Below, in pieces: positions 4,357-51,423 of a DNA stretch of 51,423 bases (within the stretch, counting starts at the first letter, position 1; every line of letters starts with the position of its first letter). Origin of the DNA: Cytophagales bacterium (lineage in GTDB: Bacteria > Bacteroidota > Bacteroidia > Cytophagales > Spirosomataceae); assembly GCA_013298215.1 (NCBI GenBank), contig JAAFKE010000025.1:1-51423 (forward strand), in the 5' to 3' direction. A program made the position numbers and the translations under genes. Below the pieces are notes generated by a model. The model ran no database searches. It had not been told where the DNA came from and saw nothing but the letters and a program-made list of their open reading frames with translations.

Positions 4357-5173
4357 ATCTAAAAAAACAACCGAAACTGTACCTTCCTTGCGGGTTGGCC
4401 TGGCGTTGTCGGGCGGGGGTGCGCGGGGAATTGCCCATTTGGGGGTGGCCAAGGCACTCATGGAGGCAGGCATTCGTTTCAGCGCCATCAGTGGTGCCAG
4501 TGCGGGAGCCATTGCAGGGGCATTTTTGGCCAAAGGTTACTTACCCGAACAAATATTTAACTTTATTTCGAGCATCAAGTTTCTGAGTTACGTGCGGCCT
4601 TCGCTTAACGGAAAAGGTATTTTGAGCATGGCCAAAATGGAGAAGTTGATGCTCACGTATTTTCCTGACGATGACTTTGAGTCGTTGAAAATGCCGCTAA
4701 CCGTGGTGGCTACCGATATTTTGGCGGGCAAAACAACGTACTTCAGCAGCGGGCCGCTCATCAAGCCAGTTTTAGCGTCGAGCAGTATTCCTGGTATTTT
4801 TGAGCCCATTACCTTCAAAGATGTGGTTTATACCGACGGCGGAACGCTCAACAATCTGCCCATCGAACCGCTCATCGGCCAGGTCGATCTGCTGATAGGC
4901 TCCAATTGCAATCCCGTCGGAGCCAGTAGGCCACTCGGAAACATGCGCGACATTGTGCAGCGCAGCCTACTTCTGGCCGCCAACAGCAAAACCCACGACC
5001 GCCTCAGCCAGTGCCACATCAGAATAGAACCCCCCGAACTGAGCAACTACGACGTTTTTGACATCCGAAAAGCGCGCGAAATTTTTAGGGCTGGTTACGA
5101 GTACGTCAAGAAAAACCCCGAACTCATCCGCCAGCCCCTGGCCATGGCCAAGGGCTCGGCGGTTGCGTCTTAG
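4349..5173 (+). CDS. Patatin-like phospholipase (RssA-like)
   Basis: A 274-residue lipid acyl hydrolase of the bacterial patatin family. It shows the oxyanion-hole glycine loop SGGGARG (21-27), the nucleophile elbow GASAG with Ser51, and the catalytic Asp163 in TDGGTLNNLP, so the Ser-Asp dyad is complete. No signal peptide or membrane segment is evident, which suggests a cytoplasmic protein acting on membrane lipids. It is the last gene of the greA-HIT group and overlaps the convergent alcohol dehydrogenase stop by a few bases (5170-5173). Natural substrate unknown. Confidence 0.92.
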   Translation: MDKSKKTTETVPSLRVGLALSGGGARGIAHLGVAKALMEAGIRFSAISGASAGAIAGAFLAKGYLPEQIFNFISSIKFLSYVRPSLNGKGILSMAKMEKLMLTYFPDDDFESLKMPLTVVATDILAGKTTYFSSGPLIKPVLASSSIPGIFEPITFKDVVYTDGGTLNNLPIEPLIGQVDLLIGSNCNPVGASRPLGNMRDIVQRSLLLAANSKTHDRLSQCHIRIEPPELSNYDVFDIRKAREIFRAGYEYVKKNPELIRQPLAMAKGSAVAS

Positions 5174-6324
5174 ATGCTGAGGTTCAGTATTTGCACCACC
5201 ACGTCGGGCGTAATGTCGGCGTGCTCGCCAAAGTTCATGTTACGTGCCACAAATCGTTTTCTAACTTCTTCGACTGTTTCTGGGCCTATTCCGTAGGTTT
5301 TGGCGTGGGTCGGAATCCCCAACGTTTCGTAGAACTGCGCAATTGCTTGGATTGCTCCCTCTACCAACTCATCGTCGGTGCCTTGCAAGTTCCACACCCT
5401 TTTGGCTACCTGAATCAATTTTTCGCGCTTTTCGGTGCTTTTCACGCGGAGTAGGTGCGGCAACACAACGGCCAGCGTGCGGGCGTGGTCTATGCCGTGG
5501 AGGGCGGTGAGCTCGTGGCCAATCTGGTGCGTGGCCCAGTCTTGCGGCACGCCCACGCTGATCCAGCCGTTGAGCGCCACCGTGGCCGCCCACATCATGC
5601 TGGCGCGGGCTTCGTAATTAGTCGGGTTTTTGAGCGTGACAGGACCTACCTCAATGAGGGTTTGCAGCACCGACTCGGCCATGCGGTCTTGCAGCGTTGC
5701 GTCCACGGGGTAGGTCAAGTATTGCTCCATGGTGTGGGTAAAAGCATCGGCAATGCCGTTGGCAATTTGTCGTTCGGGGAGCGAAAAGGTCGTTTCGGGG
5801 TCTAAGATCGAAAAAACGGGATAAACCAGTGGGTTGCCCATGCCCTTTTTTTCTTGGGTGGATGTTCGGCTTATCACGGCAAAATAGTTCATTTCCGAAC
5901 CAGTTGCGGGCAGCGTTAGCACCGCGCCGATGGGTACGGCAGTTTTAATGCGGGCTTTGCTGGCCAAAATCTCCCACGGATCTCCGCCCTCAAACGGAAT
6001 GGCCGCCGCCATAAACTTGGTGCCGTCTAAAACCGACCCGCCACCGACCGACAGCAAGAAATCAATTTTTTCGGTGCGGGCTATCTCCACTCCCCGCATG
6101 AGGGTTTCGTAGGTTGGGTTGGCCTCAATACCCCCAAATTCGATGATGGTACGGTCAGCCAGGGCGGCCTTTACTTGGTCATATACCCCATTTTGCATAA
6201 TGCTTCCGCCGCCGTAGGTGAGCATAATGTTGGCTTGGGCGGGTATCTGCTTGTTCAATTGGGCGATCTGCCCTTTGCCAAACAGCACCCGAACGGGGTT
6301 GTGGTACACGAAATTGCTAAACAT
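5170..6324 (-). CDS. Iron-containing alcohol dehydrogenase (YqhD/Bdh type)
   Basis: A 384-residue group III alcohol/aldehyde dehydrogenase using NAD(P)H. Nucleotide-binding loops are seen at GGGS (38-41) and GGGSVLDGTKFM (94-105). Metal ligands fit Asp193, His197 (DAFTHTMEQYL), His266 region (HQIGHEL) and His280 region (HGIDHARTL), matching the spacing in YqhD. It likely reduces aldehydes to alcohols in the cytoplasm and may have a detoxifying role. It is the last gene of a minus-strand run behind ftsK (22-bp gap), with no metabolic partner next to it. Confidence 0.93.
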   Translation of the reverse strand: MFSNFVYHNPVRVLFGKGQIAQLNKQIPAQANIMLTYGGGSIMQNGVYDQVKAALADRTIIEFGGIEANPTYETLMRGVEIARTEKIDFLLSVGGGSVLDGTKFMAAAIPFEGGDPWEILASKARIKTAVPIGAVLTLPATGSEMNYFAVISRTSTQEKKGMGNPLVYPVFSILDPETTFSLPERQIANGIADAFTHTMEQYLTYPVDATLQDRMAESVLQTLIEVGPVTLKNPTNYEARASMMWAATVALNGWISVGVPQDWATHQIGHELTALHGIDHARTLAVVLPHLLRVKSTEKREKLIQVAKRVWNLQGTDDELVEGAIQAIAQFYETLGIPTHAKTYGIGPETVEEVRKRFVARNMNFGEHADITPDVVVQILNLSI

Positions 6325-6346
6325 GGGTGGAGGGTTGTTTTTAAGT

Positions 6347-8875
6347 TTACAGACTTTTTAATAACATTTCGAGGCTCTCTAAATCGCCGATGAGCACATC
6401 TCGGGCTTTGCTGCCCGTAAAAGCTCCCACCACGCCAGCCGCCTCGAGCTGGTCCATGATGCGCCCCGAGCGGTTGTAGCCCAGTTTCATGCGCCGCTGA
6501 ATAAGCGAGGTGCTGCCCTGCTGGTGCAACACGATGAGCCTGGCGGCCTCGTCGAACATGGCATCGCGGTGGGCCAAGTCCACGTCTCCACGCTCTTCGC
6601 CGCCTTCGTCGCCCTCAAATTCGGGCAAAAAATACGCCGAGTCGTAGCCGTGTTGTTCGCCCACAAACTCGCAGATGTCCTCCACCTCGGGCGTGTCCAC
6701 GAAGGGGCATTGCAGCCTTATCATGTCCGAACCTGTCGAAAGCAACATATCGCCCATGCCAACCAATTGTTCGGCACCGCCCGCATCCAAAATGGTACGA
6801 GAGTCGATTTTCGATGTCACCTTAAACGACAACCGAGCGGGGAAGTTGGCCTTAATCAGTCCCGTGATTACATTGACCGACGGCCGCTGAGTGGCCACCA
6901 CCAAGTGGATTCCGATGGCGCGGGCCAACTGAGCCAAGCGGGCAATGGGCTGCTCGACCTCCTTTCCAGCGGTCATCATTAAGTCGGCCAACTCGTCGAT
7001 AACAAGTACGATATACGGCAAAAAACGGTGTCCTTTTTCGGGATTCAGTCTCCGCTTTACAAATTTTTCGTTGTATTCTTTGATATTTCGGCAGCCCGCG
7101 TCTTGCAGCAGTTTGTAGCGGTTGTCCATTTCGATACACAACGAGTTGAGGGTATTTACCACCTTTTTGGTATCGGTTATAATGGATTCGTCGGAGTTGG
7201 GGAGTTTGGCCAAAAAGTGCCGTTCCAACTTATTGTAGAGCGTAAGCTCCACTTTTTTGGGATCGACCAGTATTAATTTAAGCTGAGAGGGGTGTTTTCG
7301 GTACAGGAGCGAAGTGAGCAAAATGTTGATACCCACTGACTTACCCTGCCCCGTTGCCCCCGCCATGAGCAAGTGGGGCATTTTGGCGAGGTCGGCCACG
7401 TATATTTCGTTCGAGATCGTTTTGCCCAACACAATGGGTAGCTCGTAGTTTGCCTTCTGAAATTTCTCGCTCGTCAGCACCGACCGCGCCGACACCATCT
7501 CGCGGTTTTTGTTGGGTACTTCAATTCCGATTGTGCCTTTGCCAGGCATGGGCGCAATAATTCGGATGCCCAGCGCGGCCAGGTTGAGGGCAATGTCGTC
7601 TTCTAAGTTTTTGATTTTGGAGATGCGCACCCCAGCATCGGGAATAATCTCGTAGAGCGTTACGGTTGGCCCAATGGTGGCTTTGATACTGGCTATTCCG
7701 ATTCCGTAGTTGCCGAGTGTCTCCACAATTTTGTCTTTGTTGAGTTCCAGATCGAGCGGCGACATTTTTTCCTGCGATTTCTCGGGGTAGTCAATCAGCA
7801 GCCCGATGGTGGGCATCTGGTACTTGGGCAGGTCGAGCATGGGGTCGTACAGGCCGTGCTCGCTCACCAAATCGTTGGCGTTGGTTTCTTTTTCGTAGAA
7901 TGTAGGTTCGGCCAAGATAGGCTCCTCGGGCACCACGGGTTCGGGGGTTTCGATGGTGAGCGTAAGTTTGCCAGGTTCTTTGGTAGGGTTGGTTTTGGGT
8001 GTGCCGTTTAGCGAGTTATTTTTTGGGGTCAGTACGGGGGCTTCTTCTATTAAGTCTTCGTGTAAATCAATGTCGAGTTGGTCTTTGTCGGCCACCTCGT
8101 TTTTTTCGTATTCCTTAAATTCCCGTTTTGGGGTAAATGTTTGCGCGTCGCCAAATAAGTCTACCTCTTGGTCGTCGCTGTGCTGGGCGGGGTGCGAGCG
8201 GGAGGCTTCTATCCACCCAAAAACGCGGTCGAACGAGCGAACGTTGTGGTAATAAACCAAAAACAAGAACCAAACGAACAAAATCAAAAATAAGCACCCG
8301 ATGCCCAGTTTTGGGTTTAAGATGGCGTTTACCTCGTACCCCAAACCACCGCTCAAATGGCTCAATTGTAGCTCCGAGCCAGTAGAAATTACAAAATATC
8401 CGAGCAACACGCTAAACCAACACACGTAAAACAGCACCCCTTTTGTGAGCCGGGCCAGCGGAAAAAACTCCTTACCAAACGTGATTTTGATACCCGCCAA
8501 AAGCAGAATGAATGGCAAAGCCAGCGCGGCCAAGCCAAACCACCTGAAAATGAAATAGTGCGCCACCACCGCCCCAACAATACCGAGCGGGTTTTGGGTT
8601 TCGTTGGCGTAGCGTTGGTAGGGGGTGTTGAGCGGCGTGTCGTTGTGGGCCACACTCTGGTCGGCCACCCCCGTGAACGCGTAGGAGGCAAAGGCAATGA
8701 GCATACAGACCGACAAAATGATCGTTAGCACGCCCACGGCCAGTTCTAAGCGGTCGTCGAAGAGCCGCTTGGTGTCTATATTAAACGCAAAGGGTTTGTT
8801 GCCGCCCGTTTGGGGCTTAGAGTTGTCTCTGCGGGGTTGTTGTTGGGCTTGTTTGGGAACGACAATTTTGGCCAT
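6347..8875 (-). CDS. ftsK: DNA translocase FtsK
   Basis: An 842-residue septal DNA pump for chromosome dimer resolution and segregation. The N-terminal ~200 residues hold four or so membrane helices. A low-complexity acidic/proline linker follows (about 230-340), then the RecA-like motor with Walker A GATGQGKS near residue 505 and Walker B YIVLVIDELADLM near 635. The C-terminal ~65 residues form the winged-helix gamma domain (LIQRRMKLGYNRSGRIMDQL), which reads KOPS-like sites. Length is normal for a short-linker FtsK. Starts 70 bp after pyrD in the same direction. Confidence 0.97.
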   Translation of the reverse strand: MAKIVVPKQAQQQPRRDNSKPQTGGNKPFAFNIDTKRLFDDRLELAVGVLTIILSVCMLIAFASYAFTGVADQSVAHNDTPLNTPYQRYANETQNPLGIVGAVVAHYFIFRWFGLAALALPFILLLAGIKITFGKEFFPLARLTKGVLFYVCWFSVLLGYFVISTGSELQLSHLSGGLGYEVNAILNPKLGIGCLFLILFVWFLFLVYYHNVRSFDRVFGWIEASRSHPAQHSDDQEVDLFGDAQTFTPKREFKEYEKNEVADKDQLDIDLHEDLIEEAPVLTPKNNSLNGTPKTNPTKEPGKLTLTIETPEPVVPEEPILAEPTFYEKETNANDLVSEHGLYDPMLDLPKYQMPTIGLLIDYPEKSQEKMSPLDLELNKDKIVETLGNYGIGIASIKATIGPTVTLYEIIPDAGVRISKIKNLEDDIALNLAALGIRIIAPMPGKGTIGIEVPNKNREMVSARSVLTSEKFQKANYELPIVLGKTISNEIYVADLAKMPHLLMAGATGQGKSVGINILLTSLLYRKHPSQLKLILVDPKKVELTLYNKLERHFLAKLPNSDESIITDTKKVVNTLNSLCIEMDNRYKLLQDAGCRNIKEYNEKFVKRRLNPEKGHRFLPYIVLVIDELADLMMTAGKEVEQPIARLAQLARAIGIHLVVATQRPSVNVITGLIKANFPARLSFKVTSKIDSRTILDAGGAEQLVGMGDMLLSTGSDMIRLQCPFVDTPEVEDICEFVGEQHGYDSAYFLPEFEGDEGGEERGDVDLAHRDAMFDEAARLIVLHQQGSTSLIQRRMKLGYNRSGRIMDQLEAAGVVGAFTGSKARDVLIGDLESLEMLLKSL

Positions 8876-50665: not shown

Positions 50666-50917
50666 TTATAACCTATGCTCAAAGGGCGGAAGGGTAAGGT
50701 CGAATAGATAGGGGAGTTCTACTTGCAGGGTGCGGGCAATAACAAAAACAGTACTGAGGCTGGTGTTGATAACCCCACGCTCAATGCGCCCAATTTGGCT
50801 TAGCGTGAGGCCGCAGGCGTAGGCGAGTTCTTCTTGCGAAAAACCTTGCTCCAAACGTACTTGGCGCAAGCGTTTTCCGAAATACAAAAGACCTTCTTTA
50901 TCGCATAGATACTTCAC
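50666..50917 (-). CDS. XRE-family HTH regulator
   Basis: An 83-residue single-domain regulator. The helix-turn-helix is LRQVRLEQGFSQEELAYACG followed by LTLSQIGRIERGVINTSLST (about residues 17-56), the usual lambda Cro/C1-type fold. No sensor domain. It is divergent from the peptide locus at 51100 and could regulate it; that link is inference from position only. Confidence 0.88.
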   Translation of the reverse strand: MKYLCDKEGLLYFGKRLRQVRLEQGFSQEELAYACGLTLSQIGRIERGVINTSLSTVFVIARTLQVELPYLFDLTLPPFEHRL

Positions 50918-50960
50918 AGCGCAAAGGAGGGAGTAATTAAAAAAAAATATTAGAGCAAAT

Positions 50961-50991
50961 TTGCCTTATTTAAAATTTTGTTTTATGTTTG
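50961..50991 (+). promoter_or_regulatory. Predicted promoter of the peptide locus
   Basis: TTG at 50961-50963 and TATGTTTG at 50984-50991 with an exact 20-bp spacer match the Bacteroidota consensus. The transcript would start near 50998, leaving about 100 nt of leader before the ATG codons at 51100 and 51106. The leader contains a nine-codon open frame (ATG 50999 to TAA 51026-51028). Confidence 0.6.
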
Positions 50992-51099: not shown

Positions 51100-51311
51100 A
51101 TGAACATGAAAAAATTACAGATTGAACAAATGGAGGGGGAGCAAGTGAGAAAAAGGCAAGTGGGTGGGATTATTATTCCATTTCTTGCGGAGTATCACTG
51201 TCAATACTAAATGCTTCTTTCTTGGCAGGTCCTGTCGTTTTTGGTGCAAATGCAATATATCTTGCAACCTGTGGTTTACTTATACCAATTGCAAAAGCTT
51301 CAGGGTATTAA
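51100..51311 (+). pseudogene. Double-glycine leader bacteriocin-like peptide, one-base frameshift
   Basis: From ATG 51106 (or 51100) the frame reads KKLQIEQME, the usual Bacteroidota form of a GG-type leader. At the G5 run 51135-51139 the reading frame is off by one. Re-reading the last G of the run's first codon gives GG, then ASEKKASGWDYYSIS and a core rich in Gly, Ala, Leu and Ile (CGVSLSILNASFLAGPVVFG, ANAIYLATCGLLIPIAKASG, Tyr) to the TAA at 51309-51311. The mature part would be 56 residues with cysteines at 16 and 44. The unshifted frame instead ends at a TAA at 51223-51225. No transporter or immunity gene is visible before the window ends. It may be a broken gene, a frameshifted one or a base-call error. 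Confidence 0.6.
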
Positions 51312-51423
51312 TTCAATTAATCGTAAATATCTATTTAATTGATAATATTACTACTACTACAAAATCGTCTCATAAATACTTGATTACAAGTAAATTAAAA
51401 TACTGTTAAAATAAATCAATATG
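51312..51423. other. AT-rich end region
   Basis: Very AT-rich, with a short ACTACTACTAC run at 51350-51360. I see no complete gene. The window ends exactly on an ATG (51421-51423), preceded by AAAATAAATCAAT, which could be the start of a further gene. Confidence 0.3.

Follow-up and report, generated by a model that had tools for sequence, protein, structure and literature searches.

The window, meaning the whole 51,423 bp stretch that was analysed, is one entire contig (C18) of its own genome, which we call G000. Near its right end, 112 bp before the assembly stops, lies a small peptide gene whose leader and core are read in different frames. Two start codons open the leader reading frame (ATG 51100 and a second ATG at 51106), and the core is read in a frame that begins further downstream. 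The features of this region, in window coordinates, are listed below.

50666-50917 (-): divergent XRE/HTH_3 regulator, 83 aa, PF01381 E 2.4e-14
50960-50991 (+): promoter-like site TTTG-N20-TATGTTTG, 108 bp before ATG 51100
51100-51210 (+), stop included: readable 36-codon ORF from the start codon, which stops before most of the core
51106-51138 (+): leader half in frame 0, MKKLQIEQMEG, resembling the leaders of intact relatives (8 of 11 residues identical to the G216 leader)
51123-51171 (+): stretch that holds the frame break according to frameshift-aware alignments
51126-51137 (+): TNGG in the core frame (GG 51132-51137), a possible surviving double-glycine cleavage site; the G036 relative has the same TNGGG
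51138-51311 (+): mature-peptide frame, 57 codons plus TAA, with Cys codons at 51186-51188 and 51270-51272
51156-51188 (+): predicted stable RNA hairpin downstream of the leader; folded at two lengths it has z -3.5 and -3.6, and each time a single shuffle of 200 equalled it
51309-51417 (+): stretch that matches an intergenic region of contig C37 at 75% identity

The core frame starts at 51126, right behind an in-frame stop at 51123-51125, and the unaltered DNA read in this frame gives TNGG-GASEKK from that position, with TNGG immediately before the mature peptide. The sequence reads TNGG-GASEKKASGWDYYSISCG... and contains two Cys. The first-pass annotation had described a run of five G and a shifted core frame that stays open to a TAA at 51309 and carries two Cys; the run lies exactly at 51135-51139, and the frame was found open through the TAA at 51309-51311. 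A frame of 57 codons was open by chance in 95 of 5000 simulations, and the openness of the core frame alone is weak evidence.

The same annotation had drawn a promoter and a divergent XRE regulator upstream of the peptide gene, and both were recovered at the coordinates listed above. We take the TTTG-N20-TATGTTTG element to be a Bacteroidetes-type promoter-like site. Four sites of the form TTTG-N19-21-TANNTTTG occur in the window, where 1.03 are expected; of 100 shuffles, one had at least four. On the other side of the gene, an intergenic stretch of 109-115 bp is present in two copies that are 75% identical (window 51309-51417 and G000:C37:24670-24784). No peptide remnant was recognised in the C37 copy when its three same-strand translated frames were compared with the peptide (in the best case, 41 of 500 shuffles were as good).

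Two intact relatives of the peptide were found. A 66-aa precursor is encoded in Flectobacillus longus LYT7W (G036, contig G036:C3, NZ_JASHIC010000003.1), a member of the same family, with 53% identity and E 3e-14, and a 65-aa precursor is encoded in a second genome of that family (G216, profile E 7e-23). Comparing the shifted peptide with the precursors of relatives had been proposed at the outset, and it thus yielded two intact double-glycine (GG) precursors. Both have a 15-aa leader and two Cys that align with the two Cys of the window core, and their mature peptides are 51 aa (G036) and 50 aa (G216) long; the window has 57 codons. Against each relative, the core outscored all 1000 shuffles. 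The frame-0 product gave a similar picture, with alignments lying within the leader; of 1000 shuffles, none did as well against G216 and one did against G036. This homology decides the matter: the core frame comes from a real gene and is not a chance frame, and the leader and core halves come from one precursor.

The core is also without visible decay. Over 49 codons, 26 residues are identical between the window core and G036, 26 between the window core and G216, and 28 between the two relatives, so that the divergence of the core is hardly above that between intact genes. Differences by codon position (1/2/3) amount to 20/14/27 against G036 and 18/11/34 against G216, in both cases highest at the third position. 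The conserved frame is not an antisense one, a finding on which the peptide reading was to fall: in the three antisense frames, stop codons number 5, 2 and 1 for the window core, 7, 1 and 2 for G036, and 4, 1 and 3 for G216.

Nine GG leaders were collected. Locus L051 contributed one, and the other eight come from four clusters in G036 and G216; the weaker cases among them are L051 and a small ORF beside the G216 exporter. All nine are 15-16 aa long, and in all nine there are 3-4 residues between position 10 and the GG. The pattern of the first leader scan picks only leaders of at least 13 aa. A looser scan covered 190 small ORFs in the four cluster stretches. It returned extra ORFs only inside or opposite large genes or on the opposite strand, and on the operon strand outside large genes it found none with a shorter leader. 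As the looser scan adds no cluster-peptide leader, the 15-16 aa rule stands for cluster peptides.

The distance from codon 11 to the first Cys is 14 codons (42 nt) in both relatives and 47 nt in the window. Frameshift-aware alignment to G036 alone places the break at 51124, followed by a TNGGG identical to that of G036, whereas alignment to G216 alone keeps frame 0 up to 51165 and breaks at 51166; each result held in five of five penalty settings, and the two alignments disagree on the position. A joint profile, scored as the better of two change types per position at gap setting 11/1, forms a plateau of 152.5-160 over 51123-51171. Its top score of 160 is common to four changes at 51135-51147, two of which are +2 changes inside the G run (at 51135 and 51138); a -1 change placed at the G5 run reaches 159, and at 51123 no change exceeds 156. 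From these alignments we place the putative break within 51123-51171 and conclude only that they permit the G5 run without singling it out. That the core frame contains a leader-like TNGG points to a break upstream of this site, a placement that the joint profile does not prefer. If this TNGG were the cleavage site, 16 residues would separate the GG from the first Cys compared with 10 in both relatives, and a second length change must therefore be assumed. A 7-base repeat, GCAAGTG, is present at 51141 and 51156, near the longer post-GG stretch of the window.

In both relatives the precursor (peptide A) is the first gene of a cluster. Next in line are a second GG peptide and a small protein that has two hydrophobic segments, then a five-TM protein, a thiol-oxidoreductase-like protein and finally a C39 ABC exporter; the G036 cluster has one additional 81-aa ORF in between. 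The second GG peptide of G216 begins 31 bp past the first. Five hydrophobic segments are present in the five-TM protein of both genomes. The thiol-oxidoreductase-like protein matches AhpC/TSA above the cut-off in G216 and has weak, below-cut-off matches in G036. Both exporters score above the Pfam C39 cut-off and below that of TIGR01193. Further sub-threshold profile matches are DUF4781 for the second peptide of G216 (E 0.06) and MyrrCad for the small TM protein of G036 (E 0.024), and PADLOC returned no match for the five-TM protein or the oxidoreductase of G216. The clusters each hold a C39 exporter and so bear out the earlier suggestion that the GG-leader peptide is tied to C39-peptidase ABC exporters.

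Several neighbouring observations concern clusters of this kind. At L044, in G216, a small ORF (MKVLNINQLAVISGG.., 6433-6591, minus strand) lies between the oxidoreductase and exporter genes, overlaps the start of the exporter ORF and looks like a further GG leader. Two more clusters with a five-TM protein and a C39 exporter occur in the same genome with different GG peptides, two at L085 and one at L086. A similar order is found on the Flammeovirga pectinis plasmid NZ_CP034564.1 (L087), which has a hypothetical protein (27.7% to the five-TM protein), a redoxin and an ABC transporter, with transposases and a LanC-family gene nearby; no GG peptide is annotated in the plasmid stretch shown.

Partners of this kind were sought in the genome of the window itself. 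A search that does recover the five-TM proteins of G036 and G216 found none in G000. Two C39 exporters are present, on contigs C56 and C19; these are the nearest full-length exporters in G000, with 26 and 30% identity to that of G216, and both are accompanied by GG peptide ORFs of other kinds. On C56 (L039), one such ORF (..EAIKGGNAATCHCGC.., 7041-7301) is located some 4 kb upstream of the C39 exporter, and an HlyD-like gene at 75-1001 encodes 308 aa compared with 436 aa for its counterpart on C19, its end adjoining the left end of the contig. On C19 (L040), a GG-type peptide ORF (..MKRVTGGYCKIYF.., 1490-1816) lies upstream of thioredoxin-like genes and the second C39 exporter (5033-7411). The 112 bp past the window's peptide gene contain no second GG peptide. 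The exporter, additional GG peptides and immunity gene that the first-pass annotation had suggested looking for on the right would, if present, lie beyond the contig end. The last 25 bp of the contig occur once in G000 with up to 2 mismatches allowed and pointed to no neighbouring contig. Either the window peptide stands alone in what was assembled, as an orphan, or an unassembled gap holds its partners.

Searches for a wider family returned few relatives. Among 99 genomes, strong matches were confined to G000 and G036, with 36 further genomes weak (E 0.02-1); among 222 genomes, to G000, G036 and G216; in a sample of 390 genomes, to G000 and G036, with 10 others weak (E 0.002-0.043) and G216 giving no match, if it was drawn into that sample; and in a sample of 395 genomes, to G000 alone, with 17 others weak (E 5e-4 to 0.049). 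These four sets overlap. Of the 67 weak matches from the 99-, 390- and 395-genome searches, 15 were inspected on the match strand; one was a GG-leader ORF of another kind (L051, in G412), and on that strand a GG precursor was absent at the other 14. The genome_contigs collection held one relative, that of Flectobacillus longus. No relative was found in IMG/VR with the profile or in plasmids and phages with the core, and G000 itself held no second copy or remnant of the peptide at E <= 10. Neither the window core nor peptide A of the relatives belongs to a curated-level Pfam/NCBIfam family; at E <= 10 the sole match of the window core was Mntp (E 0.044, below the cut-off). Among the genomes searched, the peptide family is apparently rare, with strong matches confined to its own genome and two others, and the known intact relatives number two.

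Taken together, our best reading of the locus is a recently broken or mis-assembled bacteroidetocin-type precursor. Between these, we think it likely that the gene is a recently broken copy of a bacteroidetocin-type bacteriocin precursor, its frame broken as assembled. The break looks recent, given that the core is hardly further from the intact relatives than these are from each other. In the intact relatives, the neighbouring ABC exporter would recognise the 15-aa leader through its C39 domain, cut after the GG and export a mature peptide of 50-51 aa, whose two Cys are probably oxidised by the neighbouring thiol oxidoreductase, by analogy with published bacteroidetocin regions. In the window copy, leader and mature peptide are still recognisable, in different frames, so translation from the start codon would end after 34-36 residues and yield no mature peptide. 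As assembled, the gene probably makes no peptide.

An assembly or base-call error, with the gene intact in the cell as a normal GG precursor, is conceivable because the break is near the contig end: the gene ends 112 bp from it, the core is not decayed, and leader and core are both conserved. We nonetheless regard it as unlikely, since the codon-11-to-Cys length is off by 5 nt against both relatives and one miscalled base would leave an unusual length, since no five-TM protein or close exporter was found in the genome (an unassembled gap would also explain missing partners), and since the 112 bp that follow lack a second GG peptide, which in G216 comes after a gap of 31 bp. The first-pass annotation had proposed a particular form of the broken-gene reading, whose probability overlaps with that of the whole: the loss of one G from a run of six, with a leader ending MEGG. 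Joining the frames at the run does yield a GG, the -1 change there falls one point short of the best joint score, and the best ties include positions of the run, which makes it one of several placements and not a favoured one. The leader it implies fares worse. It would be 12 aa long, with the GG directly after position 10 where all nine collected leaders have 3-4 residues, against a range of 15-16 aa in the bacteroidetocin portions of PMC6671954, and 15 residues instead of 10 would separate GG and Cys. We therefore hold this version to be quite doubtful. What stands of the original proposal is a hidden GG bacteriocin-like peptide, that is, a GG precursor with a broken frame and exporter-linked relatives; the proposed repair is not favoured by the relatives' leaders.

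Programmed -1 frameshifting could in principle join leader and core and supply a GG precursor at a regulated level, and recoding would then set the ratio of the short leader product to the full precursor. The frames overlap with the right offset, a G5 run is present, and the downstream hairpin (z about -3.5) is missing in the relatives, whose matching stretches fold no better than shuffles (z 0.48 and 1.08); in a longer fold the G run is itself base-paired. The relatives, however, encode the peptide in one frame, and the joined product would again have the abnormal 12-aa leader. The stem starts 16 nt past the run, beyond the 5-9 nt usual between run and stem in -1 frameshifting, and the hairpin is seen in one sequence only. 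Such regulated recoding is thus very improbable, and it is just as hard to credit that the precursor is made only through a -1 frameshift at the G run with the hairpin at 51156-51188 as stimulator. A chance open frame without peptide ancestry could draw on the simulations, in which frames of this length did open, and is refuted by the homology to an intact GG precursor (E 3e-14, with no shuffle of 1000 as good).

A recently broken bacteroidetocin-type gene, our preferred reading, would represent a copy caught shortly after the loss of its frame; the alternative would be an assembly flaw that hides a gene. The clusters of the relatives, which have two GG peptides each, merit study more than the window copy does.

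Among known systems, class II double-glycine bacteriocins of Gram-positive bacteria share the GG leader, C39 ABC export and a small hydrophobic peptide, and a like action may be supposed by analogy. They differ in that the window core has no match to any Pfam/NCBIfam bacteriocin model at E <= 10, and class IIa leaders are given as 18-24 aa in PMC6671954. The bacteroidetocins are closer. In the sections of PMC6671954 that describe them, their regions comprise the peptide, a five-TM protein, a thiol oxidoreductase (in most regions) and an ABC/peptidase protein, with leaders of 15-16 aa and mature A/B-like peptides of 42-48 aa (35-50 aa in its discussion); they are described as killing Bacteroidetes, and PMC8546649 gives BamA as their target. 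The window copy departs from this scheme, as its leader and core stand in different frames, its 57 codons fall outside the length range, and no cluster is seen with it at the contig end. The relatives differ in carrying a second GG peptide and in mature peptides of 50-51 aa, at or just above the wider limit. At least two Cys are present in the mature peptide of the window core and of both relatives. The likeness seen in the relatives concerns leader, Cys and gene layout: both have a 15-aa leader ending in GG and two Cys, and their clusters combine a five-TM protein, a thiol-oxidoreductase-like protein (on weak matches in G036) and a C39 exporter, as in the four-gene layout published for bacteroidetocin regions. 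The peptide family would thereby be added to the bacteroidetocin-type clusters.
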